In this document: positions 4,569 through 20,441 of the stretch, one piece after another
Layout of the letters: each line of letters starts with the position of its first letter
Numbering within the stretch: position 1 is the stretch's first letter
Source of the DNA: a virus
Length of the DNA: 22,827 nt
Virus record (IMG/VR): IMGVR_UViG_3300006871_000024
Coordinates: 1 to 22,827 of that record
Reading direction: 5' to 3' (one strand)
Notes under the pieces: model-generated
Seen by the model: only the letters and a program-made list of their open reading frames with translations
Told to the model about the DNA's origin: nothing
The model's database searches: none
Translations under genes and position numbers: made by a program

Positions 4569-5933
4569 ATGCCTGACACGATTACAATTCCTGAGAATGA
4601 AGATCAGCTTAGGGAAACGCTAACTAACAAGCGTGCGATGAGTGAACTGCTTAAGGATCCGGATAAGTTTACCAATTTCGTTAACGACCATGTCAAGCTC
4701 CGTCTCTCAAAAGACCCCGCTATTCTTGGCCAGGTTAGTGAGCAGCACGAACAGTTTATGATTAATTGGCTTCGTGACCACACCAATGAAGATTTGGACG
4801 TGGTGGCCAAGCGGCTGAATTTGGACAATCCTGGTGCCCGCAATCGTGTTCGTCCGAATACGGTGTACAACAAGAAAGCTGCCGGGGCTCCACACGATGG
4901 AATGTTCGCTAGTGCGGCTGATCTCGTTTACTCGATTTATAATGAGTCTTGGAAGGATGAGCGCACGGCGGCTAACCTTGGCACGCTGAAGAATGCGCTT
5001 TCTAGTCTCAAGCCTAGTGACGGTGGCTTCCTCATTCCGGAGATCCTCCGGGCGGAATTGCTCCGTGTTGCGCTGGAAAATGCAATTGTTCGTTCCCGTG
5101 CTCGCGTTATTCCTATGGACAGTCTCACTGTTCCGTTCCCTACTGTGGACAGTACTTCCAACGTGTCCAGTGTGTACGGTGGCGTTACGGGTTACTGGAC
5201 TGAGGAAGGAGCGACCCTCACTGAGTCCAAGCCGCGTTTCGGTCGTGTTGAATTGCGAGCCCAGAAGCTCGTTCTTTACACCGAAGTCCCGAATGAGCTT
5301 TTGCAAGACGCCAGTCCATCACTTGCTGCATTCATCGGCGATATTTTCCCTGAAGCTATCGCCTGGTTCGAGGATGTGGCATTCTTCGTCGGTGGTGGAG
5401 TTGGTGAGCCTCTCGGCTTCCTGAATGCGCCGTGTGCGGTTAACGTTGACCGTACGGGATCTAGCTCCGGTACCGTTGTGTGGGCCGACATTGTAAACAT
5501 GTATGCCCGGATGCTTCCGCAGTCTTTGCGGAATGCTGTCTGGATTGTTTCTCCGGACACCCTCCCCGCACTGTTCCAAATGGTCATGACCGGTGGTACT
5601 TCTCCAATCATGCTTGGTGGCCAGGCTGGTTTTGCTACTGGTTCAGCTGCTCCGCCTATGACCATGCTCGGTCTCCCGATTATCGTTTCGGAGAAGGCGC
5701 GTACGCTTGGAACAATTGGTGACGTTAACCTGGTGGACTTCGGTTTCTACTTGATCGGTGATCGCCAGGCAATGAGTGCCAAGCAGTCGGAAGATTACAA
5801 GTTCCAGAGTGACGTTACCGCCTTCCGTGTGACTGAGCGGCTTGACGGTCGCCCGTGGCTGCTTTCGCCCATCACTCCGCAGAATGGCAGCGCTAACACC
5901 CTTTCTCCGTTCGTTAAGCTCACTACAGCGTGA
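4569..5933 (+). CDS. major capsid protein, HK97 fold
   Basis: This is the shell protein. At 454 residues it has an N-terminal helical, charged domain of about 105-125 residues (delta/scaffold region), then a linker around NKKAAGAPHDGM that is a plausible protease-cleavage zone. The HK97-type core starts with the N-arm and E-loop region, where SSLKPSDGGFLIPEILRAEL at about 140-160 is a hallmark. Later landmarks are PFPTVDSTSNVSSVYGGVTGYWTEEGA, LVLYTEVPNELLQDASPSL, and the terminal P-domain/A-domain strands DFGFYLIGDRQAM and RVTERLDGRPWLLSP. The gene follows the protease directly. All of its roughly 45 leucines avoid TTA and favour CTC, CTT and CTG, unlike the flanking packaging genes, which points to selection for high expression. 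Confidence 0.95.
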   Translation: MPDTITIPENEDQLRETLTNKRAMSELLKDPDKFTNFVNDHVKLRLSKDPAILGQVSEQHEQFMINWLRDHTNEDLDVVAKRLNLDNPGARNRVRPNTVYNKKAAGAPHDGMFASAADLVYSIYNESWKDERTAANLGTLKNALSSLKPSDGGFLIPEILRAELLRVALENAIVRSRARVIPMDSLTVPFPTVDSTSNVSSVYGGVTGYWTEEGATLTESKPRFGRVELRAQKLVLYTEVPNELLQDASPSLAAFIGDIFPEAIAWFEDVAFFVGGGVGEPLGFLNAPCAVNVDRTGSSSGTVVWADIVNMYARMLPQSLRNAVWIVSPDTLPALFQMVMTGGTSPIMLGGQAGFATGSAAPPMTMLGLPIIVSEKARTLGTIGDVNLVDFGFYLIGDRQAMSAKQSEDYKFQSDVTAFRVTERLDGRPWLLSPITPQNGSANTLSPFVKLTTA

Positions 5934-6921: not shown

Positions 6922-7278
6922 ATGGCTAAGTCAACGCATTCTCAGGAGATTCTCACGGGGACTCCTGATAGTTACACCGAACACGAGACTACCGATCCTG
7001 ATCCGGTAATTCGCAGGGAAATGTTGGGCGGTGATCCGTCATCGACGGCAGTTGGTATGGGCTCCTTGGAATCATCCGAGAACGAGAAGAAACCAAACGA
7101 CAGCGAGACGCCAGACCTCCAATCGCCTGCCCAGTTGACGGAGAGCCCCTCCAAGGGTACGGAGATACAGGAGCACTCCACTGTAGATATGACGGTTGGC
7201 GGTGGCCAGAAAACGACGCCACGGCGATCAAATAAACAATCGGCTCGTTCTCGTACGGTGAAAGACGAATTTGACTAG
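6922..7278 (+). CDS. disordered, low-complexity protein
   Basis: This 118-residue protein consists almost entirely of Ser, Thr, Glu, Asp, Pro, Gln and Gly with a basic C-terminal patch (TTPRRSNKQSARSRTVKDE). It has no hydrophobic core, cysteine or recognisable motif. The SD AAAGGAATCAA precedes ATG 6922, nine bases after the previous stop. It lies at the end of the first head module, just before a strong hairpin terminator. Such disordered proteins near head genes may be scaffold- or linker-like, but I can assign no function. Antisense ORFs here are composition artefacts. Confidence 0.65.
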   Translation: MAKSTHSQEILTGTPDSYTEHETTDPDPVIRREMLGGDPSSTAVGMGSLESSENEKKPNDSETPDLQSPAQLTESPSKGTEIQEHSTVDMTVGGGQKTTPRRSNKQSARSRTVKDEFD

Positions 7279-7298
7279 GGGGAATTAATAGTGGATAT

Positions 7299-7331
7299 GG
7301 GGAGGGTAGCCCGGACCCCGCAACCCTCCCC
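7299..7331 (+). terminator. hairpin terminator after the first head module
   Basis: A perfect 9-bp inverted repeat, GGGGAGGGT (7299-7307) and ACCCTCCCC (7323-7331), encloses a 15-base GC-rich loop and is followed by GTTTCC. It lies 21 bases after the preceding stop, before the membrane-protein cassette. The U-tract is weak, so it may attenuate transcription instead of ending it, or protect an mRNA 3' end. Confidence 0.6.
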
Positions 7332-7362
7332 GTTTCCATCCTACTAGTAGGCAGGACAATCC

Positions 7363-7638
7363 GTGCGTGACAACAAGAACCGAAAGAGCAATCGCAATAG
7401 GAAAAGACTTAGTGCTATTCTTGGGAGGTTTGGCTGGTATCTTTTATCAGCAATTGACAGGAAACGTAAATTTCGTTTTCCTAGCAATCTTCACAGCGAT
7501 GACTGGCGTTCCTGGACTTACCAACTTAATATCGATTTTGCGTGGGCCGGTTATAGGATCGGAATCACAATCGCAAGCGCAGCAGCCTTTGGAATCGGAG
7601 TCGGGCAACTCTACTTGAAAATGAATGGAATAAATTAA
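7363..7638 (+). CDS. alternative overlapping reading frame (91 aa), doubtful
   Basis: A GTG at 7363, six bases after AGGA, opens a second frame that covers the gene at 7367 and ends with TAA at 7636-7638, overlapping the ATG of the next gene as TAATG. The predicted product is very basic (RDNKNRKSNRNRKR at the start), with a hydrophobic end (GITIASAAAFGIGVG). The 7367 frame looks more like a conserved phage membrane protein, so this frame is probably a shadow. The coupling-type junction and good SD spacing are why it is recorded. Confidence 0.2.
   Translation: MRDNKNRKSNRNRKRLSAILGRFGWYLLSAIDRKRKFRFPSNLHSDDWRSWTYQLNIDFAWAGYRIGITIASAAAFGIGVGQLYLKMNGIN
7367..7618 (+). CDS. small membrane protein of the accessory cassette
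   Basis: This 83-residue protein starts at GTG 7367 downstream of AGGCAGGAC. Residues 12-28 (GKDLVLFLGGLAGIFYQ) and 33-60 (VNFVFLAIFTAMTGVPGLTNLISIL) are hydrophobic. The rest is a Ser/Gln/Glu-rich C-terminal tail. The pattern of a short amphipathic N-terminus, a helix ending FYQQLTG, and a second segment with MTGVPGLTNL resembles small membrane proteins I have seen in actinophages. The role could be holin-like or membrane-anchored, and I cannot choose. It opens a run of three small membrane genes between the 7299 terminator and the head-tail connector. Confidence 0.65.
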   Translation: MTTRTERAIAIGKDLVLFLGGLAGIFYQQLTGNVNFVFLAIFTAMTGVPGLTNLISILRGPVIGSESQSQAQQPLESESGNST

Positions 7639-8766: not shown

Positions 8767-9182
8767 TCATCGAAAATGTAATGGACGAGATTGGAACTCA
8801 ATTAGACACTATTTCAGGATTACGAGTTAAGCCTTATGAGGCAGACGAAATCGCGGTTCCTGCTGCGCTAGTGAGCTTGCCAGGACTTATTGATTATCAG
8901 ACTACTTTCGGTCCAGGGTTTTGTAGATTTGGAATTGAGATCACAGTCTTGGTGTCTAAAGTGGATGACCGTATTAGACGCAAGCAGATTGCTCCTTATG
9001 GAGATACCACAGGGGCTAAATCGATCCGCTATGCCCTCGAATCTAAGGCCAGTTGGAATTCATTTGATAGTTTGGAAGTCCAAAATGGACGGTTCACGGT
9101 TGTTGGGATAGCCGACGATGCGGGGGGAAGTAATAACTATCTTGGTTTTGTTGTGCTAGTGGATATTCTCGCTCGAACGTAG
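8763..9182 (+). CDS. tail terminator / neck protein
   Basis: This 139-residue protein starts with a GTG that overlaps the connector stop by four bases. The N-terminal helix (NVMDEIGTQLDTISGLRVKPYEAD) followed by VPAALVSLPGLIDYQTTFGPGF, and a C-terminal FTVVGIADDAGGSNNYLGFVVLVDI strand pattern, match tail-completion proteins of actinophages that cap the tube and join it to the head. The position between connector and tail tube agrees. Confidence 0.75.
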   Translation: MIIENVMDEIGTQLDTISGLRVKPYEADEIAVPAALVSLPGLIDYQTTFGPGFCRFGIEITVLVSKVDDRIRRKQIAPYGDTTGAKSIRYALESKASWNSFDSLEVQNGRFTVVGIADDAGGSNNYLGFVVLVDILART

Positions 9183-16152: not shown

Positions 16153-17106
16153 ATGGCACTTATGCCAAGCGCAGTTTACAAACCAATTAATTACAAGGGT
16201 GTTCCGTATATGCGGAGTGCCGGACCGAACGTCATTATATTCCACACAATTGTGGGCCATGATCCGGCTAATGCTGCCCACTTATCAGTAGGGGGATATG
16301 GAGAGTTAACCCAAAGTAGAGACACAATTTATCAATCAGCAGCATGTAAGGACGGTAATCCGCGTGCTATTGCTGTTGAGACAGAAGATTTAGGTGAACC
16401 ATTTCCTGTCTGGAACACGGACAATGGTCACGAGGTTCCCGCATGGTCGGAATGGCAGATTAGTCGGAATATTGAGATTTGTGTATGGGGTTTCCAGACA
16501 CACGGAATTCCGCTTGTGCCAGCGACAGATAGTAAAACTAGTTCAGCAGGAATTGCCTACCATCGGCAGGGTATCGACGGTAATTTTGAAGAGGAAGAGT
16601 TTGCTTATGGTGGCCGCGTTTCAGGTGGGGAGCATTGGTCAACTAGCACGGGTAAAGTTTGTCCAGGCGATAGGAGAATCACACAACTCCTTGAGATTAT
16701 TATTCCTAAAGCTAGACAAATTGTCGGTTTAGACCCTATTCCAAAGAAGGTATTTAATATGGCTTACCCGTACGATTTGCCGGCTCATTTCCCGGATGTA
16801 CCCAATACTGATCCCAATTATTTCACTGAAGTAGTTGTGCCTCTCACTCCGCAACACGGTTTTACGGGAGTGACTTCGGTATGGGTCAACATTGCTAATA
16901 AGAATGCTGAATTAAAAGTAGGCACGGCAGCGTGGCAATGTGGCTCACCTGATAATCACCATGCTGAGCCTTTTCTCACTGGGTCTTTCACAATTGACCC
17001 CCTTGGCTGCACAGGCGGGGTACGCGCTCCTGAGAGTGCTTATAGCTTGATTGTGGATTACCGCAGCCCTCTCGGTGCATCCGTAGTTATCGAGCCGGTT
17101 AATTAG
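16153..17106 (+). CDS. endolysin, N-acetylmuramoyl-L-alanine amidase (PGRP/Amidase_2-type) with C-terminal binding domain
   Basis: This cell-wall hydrolase is predicted to cut the MurNAc-L-Ala bond. Residues 20-190 are PGRP-like, with zinc ligands H31 (in NVIIFHTIVG), H161 (EHWSTSTG) and C170 (GKVCPGDRR). K168 matches the Lys two before the Cys in T7 lysozyme, and Y60 is a possible partner. The catalytic domain is followed by a beta-rich C-terminal region (about 198-317) that may bind the cell wall. There is no signal peptide, so export would need the holin. The start lies after a purine-rich GGAGTGGAG. ATG 16162 is another possible start. Confidence 0.88.
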   Translation: MALMPSAVYKPINYKGVPYMRSAGPNVIIFHTIVGHDPANAAHLSVGGYGELTQSRDTIYQSAACKDGNPRAIAVETEDLGEPFPVWNTDNGHEVPAWSEWQISRNIEICVWGFQTHGIPLVPATDSKTSSAGIAYHRQGIDGNFEEEEFAYGGRVSGGEHWSTSTGKVCPGDRRITQLLEIIIPKARQIVGLDPIPKKVFNMAYPYDLPAHFPDVPNTDPNYFTEVVVPLTPQHGFTGVTSVWVNIANKNAELKVGTAAWQCGSPDNHHAEPFLTGSFTIDPLGCTGGVRAPESAYSLIVDYRSPLGASVVIEPVN

Positions 17107-17124
17107 TAACTAGAAGGAGAGAAA

Positions 17125-17361
17125 ATGAGTACTCCAATTCAAGTTCCGATTCCTGAGGTAGTCCAAAAAGGAACAAAGGCAGTTGTGGCAACAATTACCC
17201 TGGTAGTAGGTGTAGTTGGTTTGTTTGCGGCTTCCATCTCGGATGGTTCGCTCTCGTGGGGTGAGGGCGGTGAGCTGCTGGGCGCTGTGGCAACGGCGAT
17301 TACCACAATCGCGGCTGTGTGGCGGGTGCCGAATGAGGTTACGTCCGTGACGATGCGTTAA
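17125..17361 (+). CDS. holin-like protein, two transmembrane segments
   Basis: This 78-residue protein has hydrophobic stretches at about 17-37 (TKAVVATITLVVGVVGLFAA) and 48-66, separated by a short acidic/Gly loop (DGSLSWGEGGE), and a short polar end. Placement directly after the amidase and the two-TM layout fit a holin that lets the lysin reach the wall. The SD GAAGGAGAGAAAA is strong. Other small membrane proteins (2076, 6213, 7367-8101, 15733) are competing candidates for parts of lysis. Confidence 0.8.
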   Translation: MSTPIQVPIPEVVQKGTKAVVATITLVVGVVGLFAASISDGSLSWGEGGELLGAVATAITTIAAVWRVPNEVTSVTMR

Positions 17362-17406
17362 GCCATCTTCAAGATCATTTATACCCCTTCTGACCAGCGC
17401 GTTTGT

Positions 17407-17473
17407 CCGCAGAGCCCCTGAAATGACTTCCCTAGGGTGACTGTACCGGGGAATGCATTTGGGGGCTCTGTGG
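17407..17473 (+). repeat. long interrupted hairpin after the lysis genes
   Basis: CCGCAGAGCCCCT (17407-17419) pairs with GGGGGCTCTGTGG (17461-17473), with two GU pairs. After a single bulged G the stem continues as AAATG/CATTT, then TTCCC with GGGAA. The structure spans 67 bases with about 23 pairs. No run of T follows, so an intrinsic terminator is not the simplest reading. Confidence 0.6.
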
Positions 17474-17600
17474 CGCTTCTAGGGGCCTTTACGGCCATGC
17501 CCTGGAAGCCCTCAAGGCTAGGAGGGACCGTCCACGGTCACTCTCCGTAGTGTGGCGCACGTCACACGAAAACAGACCCTGTTTAATGAATTTATTCGAT

Positions 17601-17697
17601 AGGCTCACGTTGTTCGGTTTTCCGGGTCCGATCCCCGGAGGGCGGGGACCACCGCTCACGCGAGGAATGGCGCTATGCGCACGCCGGACGTGAGCCT
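17601..17697 (+). repeat. multibranched inverted-repeat structure
   Basis: AGGCTCACGT (17601-17610) and ACGTGAGCCT (17688-17697) form a perfect 10-bp closing helix. Inside are TCCGGG/CCCGGA (17621-17626/17634-17639, 7-base loop TCCGATC), GGCG/CGCC (17641-17644/17682-17685) and GCGC-TAT-GCGC (17670-17680). The first inner hairpin resembles a tRNA T arm, but the rest does not fold as a tRNA. Confidence 0.5.
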
Positions 17698-17760
17698 TGT
17701 GAACCAGCATCCACCGCCTTAATTCCATAGTGAGAATTTCTCCCTCTAGATTTTGAATGA

Positions 17761-17795
17761 GGGGGAACGGTGACGCATAGCTAACCCGTTCCTCC
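17761..17795 (+). repeat. strong hairpin before the L7/L12-like gene
   Basis: GGGGGAACGG (17761-17770) pairs with CCGTTCCTCC (17786-17795), with one GU, around a 15-base loop. It ends about 28 bases upstream of the next start, whose SD is AGGAAGGAAATGGA. Either a boundary of the RNA region or a leader hairpin of the downstream operon. Confidence 0.5.
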
Positions 17796-17823
17796 AATTG
17801 AGGACCTAGAGGAAGGAAATGGA

Positions 17824-18174
17824 ATGTTCGTAACTAACGCAACAATTTATCTCAACGGGCAGGCTGTTGTGGTTGAAGCTCAAATTGAGATGCCGGAACC
17901 GCCCCCGGTCAACGTTGGTGAGGAAATTTACCAATTACAGTCACGGATGCGCCGATTGGAAGCTATCGCCACCAATCAAGGTGGAATGCGTGCCTCAGTG
18001 GAGAGGATTGGCGCACTGATCCAAGCTGTTCAACGGGGTGAGAAAATCCAGGCAATCAAGGCTTTGCGAGAGGCAACCCCCGGGTTGGGAATGAAGGAAG
18101 CAAAAGACATTATCGAGACCACTTGGGACACTTTTTACGCGAATGATGCTCAAAGAAGTCGGCCGCCGTTCTAA
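17824..18174 (+). CDS. protein with a ribosomal L7/L12 C-terminal-like domain
   Basis: This 116-residue protein has a beta-like N-terminus (MFVTNATIYLNGQAVVVEAQ) followed by a polar helical middle. Its C-terminal segment (about 66-100), with GEKIQAIKALREATPGLGMK followed by EAKDIIE, closely matches the bL12 C-terminal domain pattern of K-x2-IKxxRxxTGLGLKEAKDLVE. In ribosomes that domain recruits translation factors. In phages the fold may serve as a binding module, which is unproven here. It opens the early/accessory region after the structured RNA region, and its TAA overlaps the next gene's ATG (TAATG). Confidence 0.75.
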   Translation: MFVTNATIYLNGQAVVVEAQIEMPEPPPVNVGEEIYQLQSRMRRLEAIATNQGGMRASVERIGALIQAVQRGEKIQAIKALREATPGLGMKEAKDIIETTWDTFYANDAQRSRPPF

Positions 18175-18305
18175 TGCCCAAAACTCCAGGCCCATCCTGT
18201 AAACGTTGTTGGGGCAAAAGGGTTATCACCAAGAAACGGGGTGGTACGACTACTGAGGTTACTTGTCCACGATGTGGTGGAACGGGTAAGGAACCGCAAA
18301 GCTGA
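18174..18305 (+). CDS. small zinc-ribbon protein (43 aa)
   Basis: ATG 18174 shares its A with the preceding stop. The 43 residues carry two CxxC pairs (C9/C12 and C31/C34) about 18 residues apart, followed by GGTGKE, as in DnaJ-type or rubredoxin-like zinc ribbons. The rest is basic (WGKRVITKKRGG). It could bind nucleic acid or protein. The function is unknown. It is the first of several small Cys/His-rich genes. Confidence 0.7.
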   Translation: MPKTPGPSCKRCWGKRVITKKRGGTTTEVTCPRCGGTGKEPQS

Positions 18306-18313
18306 ATTGCAGT

Positions 18314-18355
18314 TGAACGCATTCTACGGAGTGCGTTCACTCGGCTATTCAGCCG
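18314..18355 (+). repeat. two tandem hairpins, first with UACG tetraloop
   Basis: TGAACGCATTC (18314-18324) and GAGTGCGTTCA (18329-18339) form an 11-bp stem with one GU, closed by C-TACG-G, a UNCG-type very stable loop. CGGCT-ATTC-AGCCG follows at 18342-18355. They sit in the 69-base gap before the gene at 18375 and end about six bases before its SD. No T-run follows, so RNA stability or processing is as likely as termination. Confidence 0.6.
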
Positions 18356-18374
18356 GTACGAGAGGAGAAATGAA

Positions 18375-18656
18375 ATGGGTAAGCACTCTGACCCGGACCT
18401 TGCACTGATCGATATACCGCCCACGCTGCAAAGTGTGGTGCTCCATGCGGAGAAGTACCGGGGAACGGTTCACGGTGACACGTCAACGGGTGAAATTGAC
18501 GTGGAATTTCCAACAATCAATGTGGCGGCTCTGTTCGCGGCTGATATGTGGGCTGCACTCGGCTGGAAAATCGAAATTCGGGAAGGTGATTCGGTGACTT
18601 CACTTAACGTGCCTGTCGTATTGACCGTGTTCACCGAGTACACCCCGGTTGTCTGA
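18375..18656 (+). CDS. uncharacterised protein (93 aa)
   Basis: The start ATG 18375 has the purine-rich SD AGAGGAGAAATGAA upstream. The protein looks like a small alpha/beta domain with strands HGDTSTGEIDVEFPTINVAA and WKIEIREGDSVTSLNVPVVL. There are no Cys, TM or known motifs. The gene after it starts in the stop codon (TGATG). Confidence 0.65.
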   Translation: MGKHSDPDLALIDIPPTLQSVVLHAEKYRGTVHGDTSTGEIDVEFPTINVAALFAADMWAALGWKIEIREGDSVTSLNVPVVLTVFTEYTPVV

Positions 18657-18844
18657 TGGCTAAGCCTGTTCCGGGACCGAGAGAGAAGTCCTCCAAGTGC
18701 TCTCACTCGAAAGTAAAAAAGGAGAGCGGTCCTCATTCATTCGAGGGACCTACCGGACCAATTGTGGCCTACAAATGGAAGTGCGATACCACAAAGGGCT
18801 GTAATCACTGGTTCTGGGGGAATAGTAAGGGAGGTAGACTATAA
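18656..18844 (+). CDS. small Cys/His-rich protein (62 aa)
   Basis: Coupled to the preceding gene by a shared A (TGATG). Cys and His residues C15, H17, C43, C49 and H51 (SKCSHSK, WKCDTTKGCNHWFW) suggest a zinc site. The rest is Lys/Gly/Pro-rich and looks flexible. Near its 3' end the sequence AAGGGAGGT serves as an SD for the next gene, and its stop TAA overlaps that gene's probable AUA start. The function is unknown. Confidence 0.7.
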   Translation: MAKPVPGPREKSSKCSHSKVKKESGPHSFEGPTGPIVAYKWKCDTTKGCNHWFWGNSKGGRL

Positions 18845-18981
18845 CCTCTTTCAAATTCCCTAAGTGCTCTTGGTGTCAGCGAGAATTCGTTACACCAGAG
18901 GGACGTGACCGGCACATGGTCAAGTGCCCTAAACGTCCAATTGAAACAGGTAAGAGAAAGAAGCCAAAAGGAGAGCGTTAA
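18841..18981 (+). CDS. C2HC zinc-finger microprotein with apparent ATA start
   Basis: The frame runs from after a TAG, through ATA 18841 and 46 codons, to TAA 18979-18981. It encodes KFPKCSWCQREFV and HMVKCP: C9-x2-C12-x12-H25-x3-C29, a classic C2HC finger, followed by a basic tail (KRPIETGKRKKPKGER). No ATG, GTG, TTG or CTG exists upstream of the finger in this frame. ATA is preceded by the near-perfect SD AAGGGAGGT (18827-18835) at the right distance and overlaps the preceding stop (ATAA). This mirrors the ATGA overlaps of neighbouring genes. An internal ATG at 18916 would lose three of the four zinc ligands. The coding call is firm on the finger motif; the start is inference. Confidence 0.6.
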   Translation: MTSFKFPKCSWCQREFVTPEGRDRHMVKCPKRPIETGKRKKPKGER

Positions 18982-19079
18982 TGGGTGCAGTACCCCGGAA
19001 GTGCCCTAGTTGTGGAGCCCCTACGGCGGGTATGTCCAAGAAGCATTATGAGCAGCACTTGGCTAGGTGTCTCGGATGA
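18981..19079 (+). CDS. C2HC zinc-finger microprotein (32 aa)
   Basis: TAATG-coupled to the preceding gene. The ligands C8-x2-C11-x14-H26-x3-C30 repeat the architecture of the neighbour at 18841 and of the gene at 20442. An in-frame SD (AAAGGAGAG) lies about 12 bases upstream, inside the preceding gene. Thirty-two residues is little more than the finger itself. It may bind nucleic acid or a host protein. Confidence 0.65.
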   Translation: MGAVPRKCPSCGAPTAGMSKKHYEQHLARCLG

Positions 19080-19207
19080 GTGCGAAAGATGGACGTGGTG
19101 TGAAAGCAGACGGGCACCAAACCCGTAAATACAGGCGTCAATACCGCAAATGCCACAAGCACGCGGATTGCCGTGCCATGAGTAACAGTATTTGGCGTAA
19201 GCGTTAG
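19076..19207 (+). CDS. small basic protein with Cys/His cluster (43 aa)
   Basis: ATG 19076 overlaps the preceding stop (ATGA). The 43 residues are strongly basic (RKYRRQYRK, WRKR) with a C26-H27-x-H29-x2-C32 cluster (KCHKHADC), possibly a small metal site. The basic character favours RNA or DNA contact. It ends just before the hairpin and tRNA. Confidence 0.65.
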   Translation: MSAKDGRGVKADGHQTRKYRRQYRKCHKHADCRAMSNSIWRKR

Positions 19208-19213
19208 CACAAA

Positions 19214-19231
19214 GGGAGCCCTTGGGCTCCT
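19214..19231 (+). terminator. small hairpin before the tRNA
   Basis: GGAGCC-CTTG-GGCTCC (19215-19230), with a GT extension. No T-run follows. The short distance to the tRNA start at 19234 makes processing or RNA boundary as plausible as termination. Confidence 0.35.
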
Positions 19232-19233
19232 GA

Positions 19234-19307
19234 ACCCCCTTAGCCCAATAGGTAGAGGCAGCGCATTTAAAATGCGTTTAGTACCGGTTCGAATCCGGTA
19301 GGGGGTA
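19234..19307 (+). tRNA. tRNA with anticodon UAA (Leu, UUA codon), short variable loop
   Basis: Seventy-four bases fold as a cloverleaf. The acceptor ACCCCCT pairs with AGGGGGT (19234-19240/19300-19306). The D arm is GCC/GGC (19243-19245/19257-19259) with GGT in its loop. The anticodon stem is GCGCA/TGCGT (19261-19265/19273-19277) around loop TTTAAAA, so the anticodon is TAA (19268-19270). The variable loop is TTAGT, five bases, and the T arm is ACCGG-TTCGAAT-CCGGT (19283-19299). The discriminator is A (19307), and CCA is not encoded. A UAA anticodon reads UUA leucine, but leucine tRNAs normally have a long variable arm, so charging identity is uncertain. Confidence 0.85.
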
Positions 19308-19329
19308 CTCGTTCGAGAGAGGAAAAGAA

Positions 19330-20229: not shown

Positions 20230-20375
20230 CACGAAGAGTTGATGAAGATTCATTTCCGGAAACATTGGAGCCAACACCAGAGGAACAAGAGGAAGCTAAT
20301 CGATATAACGAACAGTTGGAAAAGGACACGGAATGGGCTATTCGTAATTCGGGACGGTTAGCAAGAGGAGAGTGA
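20226..20375 (+). CDS. small acidic protein (49 aa)
   Basis: ATG 20226 overlaps the preceding TGA (ATGA). The 49 residues are rich in Glu (EPTPEEQEEANRYNEQLEKD) with a basic/Gly end (NSGRLARGE) and look helical. No Cys. The function is unknown. The hairpin at 20383 follows directly. Confidence 0.6.
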   Translation: MTRRVDEDSFPETLEPTPEEQEEANRYNEQLEKDTEWAIRNSGRLARGE

Positions 20376-20382
20376 ATGGCAA

Positions 20383-20420
20383 CCCCCTAGATTACCGGAG
20401 CAATTCGGTAGCCTAGGGGG
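20383..20420 (+). terminator. composite hairpin, tRNA-minihelix-like
   Basis: CCCCCTAG (20383-20390) pairs perfectly with CTAGGGGG (20413-20420), and inside TACCG (20393-20397) pairs with CGGTA (20406-20410) around an eight-base loop. The outer CCCCCT/AGGGGG matches the acceptor stem of the tRNA at 19234, and the inner stem resembles that tRNA's ACCGG/CCGGT T arm. No T-run follows, so it may be a terminator, a stability element or a degenerate tRNA minihelix. Confidence 0.5.
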
Positions 20421-20441
20421 CTATTCGCATTGGAGAAAAGA

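Follow-up and report, generated by a model that had tools for sequence, protein, structure and literature searches.

The gene-free stretch at positions 17362-17823 of an uncultivated viral genome probably belongs, in a reduced form, to an as yet undescribed family of structured phage RNAs. Its fold goes beyond chance, about 15 relatives carry syntenic folds, and these folds lie mostly behind a regulator-type box, so that a new family of working phage RNA is probable. As to its nature, we lean slightly towards a structured noncoding RNA, which would be produced from a rightward operon's leader. Throughout, 'the window' denotes the whole 22,827-nt IMG/VR record IMGVR_UViG_3300006871_000024 and not only the structured region, while L007-L028 are labels of related uncultivated phage loci. 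Actinobacterial hosts are indicated by the window's tail, helicase and endolysin proteins and by the best portal match; judged from these proteins, the group probably consists of uncultivated tailed phages of actinobacteria. The features discussed are collected in Table 1.

Table 1. Genes and structural features in and around the structured region, in window coordinates.
Feature	Position	Strand	Description
Amidase-like endolysin gene	16153-17106		upstream of the holin-like gene
Small holin-like membrane protein gene	17125-17361	+	last of the lysis cassette; ORF of 78 aa; similar proteins in L007 and L011
Module 1	17362-17512	+	conserved TTCAAGATCA...TGACC lead, long hairpin, second hairpin
67-base interrupted hairpin	17407-17473	+	inner strands AAATG/CATTT and TTCCC/GGGAA conserved
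Conserved CTAGGGGCCTTTACGGCC	17479-17496	+	small hairpin GGCC/GGCC
Putative CRP/GlxR-type operator	17551-17566	.	TGTGGCGCACGTCACA; one arm base off TGTGA-N6-TCACA
Candidate -10 elements	17591-17605	+	TTTATT (17591-17596), TAGGCT (17600-17605)
Module 2	about 17601-17823	+	downstream of the box
Module 2, 5′ domain	17601-17697	+	97-base multibranch element; closing helix AGGCTCACGT/ACGTGAGCCT
Hairpin CCGGG-TCCGATC-CCCGG	17622-17638	+	T-loop-like 7-nt loop
Module 2, 3′ domain	17740-17813	+	helix CCTCTAG/CTAGAGG around GGAACGG/CCGTTCC
First gene 3′ of the structured region	17824-18174	+	116 aa; C-terminal part like the ribosomal L7/L12 C-terminal domain

Folded as the plus strand, the region reaches -193.7 kcal/mol, compared with -161.1 ± 6.6 kcal/mol for dinucleotide-shuffled sequences, none of which, out of 100, was as stable (z = -5.0). 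When the whole window was scanned in subwindows of 180 nt, 252 on each strand, the two lowest plus-strand z-scores (-5.2 and -5.3) were located within the region, at 17641 and 17731. These values bear out an earlier note on this DNA, which had described a gene-free, strongly structured stretch after the lysis cassette and proposed the comparison with shuffled sequence. The stems which it had listed were likewise found in place, namely the 67-base hairpin, a 10-bp helix, the 97-base multibranch element and a final helix, and its remark that none of them carries a clear U-tract agrees with the result that no intrinsic terminator (GC-rich hairpin plus U-tract) occurs within 17000-18400. Elsewhere in the window, low-energy plus-strand subwindows were observed at 18811-18990 (z -4.8) and 20251-20430 (z -4.3); the gene-poor stretch 18845-19233, taken whole, gives a z of -1.4 only.

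The region holds no believable gene, as its short ORFs have weak relatives only (E > 0.01). Coding by a minus-strand ORF of 102 aa or a plus-strand ORF of 47 aa was considered and rejected: neither has more than weak similarity in L010 (E about 0.1-0.2), and in the plus-strand case this is interrupted by 1-nt indels. The best homologous stretch in L010 contains 1-nt indels. Rfam searches at gathering and relaxed thresholds returned tRNAs only, plus chance microRNA-like matches, which supports the earlier note's view of a novel phage RNA candidate. With blastn, the window region and the corresponding regions of three relatives found no match among 50,697 isolated phages. The only tRNA- or tmRNA-type match in the window (ARAGORN, Rfam) is a tRNA-Leu at 19234-19308, and neither program detects a complete cloverleaf or tmRNA fold in the structured region.

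About 20 close uncultivated relatives were recovered with the helicase as bait, the helicases being 54-66% identical; the portal was also effective as a bait, and the endolysin and the 116-aa protein retrieved none. In most relatives the order is endolysin, holin, gene-free stretch, small genes, usually a tRNA-Leu, a conserved protein and the helicase. The name 'holin' for the window's gene is given from its position after the endolysin and its hydrophobicity. The tRNA-Leu lies within approximately 1-2 kb downstream of the structured slot in most relatives; its anticodon is TAA or TAG (L008, L010, L011, L012, L014-L017, L019, L023, L026 and L028).

At least 15 phages, the window counted, have a gene-free stretch of 240-700 nt between the holin and the replication genes, and this stretch is mostly folded beyond chance. 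Downstream of the box it is 257 nt long in the window, and in ten relatives its length ranges from 288 to 699 nt; the structured segment tested in L013 comprises 243 nt. The z-scores of the syntenic stretches against shuffles are -8.3 (L017), -8.0 (L023), -6.8 (L016), -5.2 (L018), -4.4 (L013), -3.8 (L026), -3.7 (L007), -3.6 (L011), -3.5 (L012), -2.9 (L008) and -2.6 (L028). As measured, module 2 of L010 (-1.0) and the stretches of L014 (-1.2) and L015 (+1.4) fold no better than shuffled sequence.

Several of these stretches display peculiarities of their own. Within that of L018, positions 4880-4995 resemble the 3′ part of a tRNA, with a CGGGTTCGATCCCCG arm and an 8-bp acceptor-like helix. A small hairpin, ACACAGC..GCTTGA, occurs in two to three copies within the RNA of L017 (7180-7260) and L023 (7550-7760). 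In L028, AT-rich helices of great length, such as ATGTTTTTGGTATGTG with CACATACCAAAAACAT, occur at 7190-7370 in the structured stretch.

Six relatives (L008, L012, L014, L015, L016 and L026) share a core, CCGGTAGACACCC..GAGGTTAGG, with a helix on either side. The core occurs in five distinct versions, in which 60 of 60 pairs are canonical, and 9 of the 12 pair positions have changed on both sides, a result matched by 0 of 5000 shuffles. For this count the strands were tabulated explicitly, L012 being misplaced in the MAFFT alignment; they were chosen after their complementarity had been seen, and their register is fixed by constant spacers in five of the six. A covariance model built from L014, L015 and L016 only recovers L008 (E 5e-9) and L026 (E 2e-8) at the same place. 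Among 2.9 million viral contigs, the exact core motif is confined to this phage group. A scan of a genome collection gave one match, in an archaeal MAG, which we judge to be due to chance because of the number of bases scanned. L008 contains a second copy of the core motif, and in L007, L013 and L014 a motif resembling its two strands appears in swapped order (GAGGTACA..CGGTGAATCGCCC).

Where the core has G-U pairs, they fit the plus strand. This is consistent with an RNA and speaks against the view that the inverted repeats act as DNA, as a replication origin, an integration site or some other site of single-stranded folding. The same view is disfavoured by the promoter just upstream in most members, by the highly variable length of the stretch and by loops of T-loop-like and GNRA type. 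The location between late and replication genes would suit such an element, and both strands fold well (z = -3.8 for the minus strand in the shuffle control); overall we consider it very improbable.

The window itself lacks the six-member core, according to both the covariance model and the motif search. It is therefore tied to the family by place, by the box and by motifs shared stepwise with L010, L011 and L007. What it has in common with the other members is the slot between holin and rightward operon, the box and structure beyond shuffles.

The box is a TGTG-N8-CACA palindrome, which 18 of the 20 close phages, the window included, carry at the syntenic position. Twelve of these match TGTGA-N6-TCACA strictly and six nearly; the window is of the latter kind, with TGTGG in one arm instead of TGTGA. 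Strict boxes are rare elsewhere (2 in the group's 389 kb and 3 in 1.24 Mb of other fetched loci). The two closest relatives of the window, L010 and L011, have no box. The palindrome was also considered as an RNA hairpin; it is instead read as a DNA site because its TGTG/CACA arms never change compensatorily. GlxR, the regulator of CRP type in Corynebacterium, has TGTGA-N6-TCACA as its consensus (PMC7999487). In most relatives the box matches this sequence of the actinobacterial CRP/GlxR operators, with the difference that it sits in a phage. A phage-encoded CRP was rejected as binder, since 12 related phage records searched contained no CRP-like protein; the putative binder would thus belong to the host.

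Furthermore, -35/-10 pairs are enriched behind the box, with a summed score of 104; random stretches score 19 ± 9, and none of 1000 reached the observed value. The slot would thus hold a promoter whose operator resembles the sites bound by host CRP/GlxR. In the window no -35 is recognisable. The candidate -10 element TTTATT would place the RNA start at about 17602, which is the start of the first helix of module 2, and TAGGCT at about 17612. Because the box is one base off, a -35 is missing and L010 and L011 lack the box, the start of the window's transcript is uncertain between these two positions. L020-L022 retain box and promoter, and the large RNA is absent there. In L020, a sequence that resembles a tRNA, its anticodon loop being unusually long, lies at 8958-9057 directly behind the CRP-box promoter and occupies the spot of the structured RNA of other relatives.

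Since the palindrome looks like a DNA operator, the 460 bases do not form one uninterrupted RNA element. The earlier note had seen in them a single functional RNA. Its general idea is supported by the folding and by the syntenic structure in relatives; the unity of the region is not, as the probable operator and promoter split it into two modules, and module 1 is present in just 3 of about 20 phages.

Module 1 has homologues only in L010 (5409-5560) and L011 (6337-6488). In the window, 17362-17549 folds with a z of -3.65. The outer stem of the 67-base hairpin shows compensatory differences between the window and L010, and a 12-mer, TAGGGGCCTTTA, is identical in the window, L010 and L011 and found in no others. 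CTAGGG within the conserved element at 17479-17496 could form a pseudoknot with CCCTAG at 17430-17435. In the alignment of the window with L010, 0 of 38 pairs are broken and five have changed on both sides, compared with 2.4 ± 1.3 in column shuffles; the two-sequence consensus energy lies at z = -7.4 against such shuffles. With L011 included, the strict three-sequence count gives no significant covariation (53 of 500 shuffles do at least as well), because L011 fits the outer stem only in part.

These features bear on an improbable alternative, in which module 1 and the adjacent stems serve the late lysis operon as a terminator or processing region, module 2 being ordinary 5′ UTR structure. A terminator would hardly be expected to conserve the inner sequences of a 67-base hairpin and TAGGGGCCTTTA while its outer stem varies. 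No terminator-like site was found, and in relatives without module 1 the holin runs straight to the box. In addition, the large RNAs of the relatives contain conserved internal motifs and compensatory helices. What the alternative does account for is that module 1 adjoins the holin gene directly. Also in its favour, actinobacterial terminators can be without a U-tract.

Module 2 opens with a perfect 10-bp helix (17601-17610/17688-17697). The start of the multibranch element, GGCTCACGTT, is conserved in L010, where the partner strand is imperfect. In the T-loop-like hairpin, the loop TCCGATC is kept in L010 and the stem has changed on both sides (CTCCGG-TCCGATC-CCGGAG). This hairpin was considered as part of a tRNA or a permuted tmRNA and rejected, no acceptor partner being seen. 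The final helix (17743-17749/17806-17812) runs into the ribosome binding site that serves the next gene. An alternative hairpin, CTCCCTC/GAGGGGG (17740-17765), excludes this 3′ helix, and of the two folds it is the hairpin that is conserved in L010. The alignment of module 2 between the window and L010 gives z = -5.0 and 14 two-sided changes against 7.2 ± 2.2 in shuffles; it is given less weight because its second half aligns poorly. A scan with the module-2 pattern returned L010 and two contigs which are apparently unrelated. The covariation proposed as a check by the earlier note is thus clear in the core helices of the relatives, and for the window's own stems it comes directly from L010 in the main.

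In most relatives the slot would begin with a promoter and its host-CRP/GlxR-type operator, followed by a structured RNA of 240-700 nt and then by the first gene. In the window, module 2 would begin just 3′ of the operator and module 1 would lie 5′ of it, at the end of the late (lysis) transcript. The RNA would be a noncoding product in its own right, which the phage would make from the rightward operon's leader once the host regulator allows it. Its action may depend on its fold, through contact with a protein, with a host RNA or with further copies of the same RNA.

With no terminator between the RNA and the gene that follows, the RNA could also serve as a leader. In its pure form, which we regard as rather unlikely, such a leader would be cis-acting and the RNA would work on its own transcript alone, for example by protecting it, by carrying the polymerase past terminators in the manner of the put RNA of phage HK022 or by controlling translation of the first gene. 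The placement between promoter and first gene agrees with this, as do the last helix of the window ending at the ribosome binding site, its two mutually exclusive 3′ folds and the small hairpins immediately 5′ of the Shine-Dalgarno sequence in L007, L008, L017, L023 and L026. However, at 300-700 nt and with internal motifs that recur, the RNA would be large for a leader of this kind. The first ORF 3′ of the RNA stretch differs among many genomes; that of the window, whose C-terminal end matches Pfam PF00542 (E 3e-7), has no tblastn match in the relatives and no counterpart behind their RNA stretch. Because the first gene varies and L020-L022 have the promoter without the large RNA, an RNA working for itself is favoured over a control element of one gene.

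Tentatively, and with rather less confidence than in the family itself, we could go further and see here a new class of large ornate phage RNA. Its members would reach up to about 700 nt and be assembled from exchangeable modules, the same two-strand motif occurring in either order and being repeatable. A switch based on the host cAMP regulator would read the metabolic state of the host for an RNA machine or assembly, and the window would represent a pared-down form. Large structured phage RNAs are few, and this family offers many divergent members, a fixed slot, covarying helices and an apparent host-regulator switch. It makes testable which RNA is made, when, and whether under the control of host cAMP. 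More generally, conserved RNAs missed by current models can hide in the gene-free stretches of uncultivated phages.

Among known phage RNAs, the put RNA of phage HK022 is an antiterminating leader RNA. The region described here would resemble it as a structured leader just 3′ of a phage promoter; on a comparison drawn from general knowledge, it is much longer and the genes behind it vary.

GOLLD is a large structured noncoding RNA of phages and prophages, located near tRNA genes, for which phage-linked expression was reported (PMC12286853). The gene-free stretches of the present group, 240-700 nt in length and structured, would yield RNAs of a similar kind, partly variable in size and parts as GOLLD is, and most relatives have their tRNA-Leu downstream; the sequence and the core motif are unlike those of GOLLD, and the form in the window is shorter. 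ROOL is a phage-borne RNA with no known protein partner; like GOLLD, it is large and structured, lies near tRNA genes and is of unknown function (PMC12286853). Both assemble into RNA-only multimers. The present family would also be phage-borne, with another core and no Rfam match. The Rfam models of GOLLD and ROOL, at gathering threshold, found no match in the window, L007, L008, L010-L018, L020, L022, L023, L026 and L028. By these models the family belongs to neither; GOLLD and ROOL are its nearest known counterparts in type.
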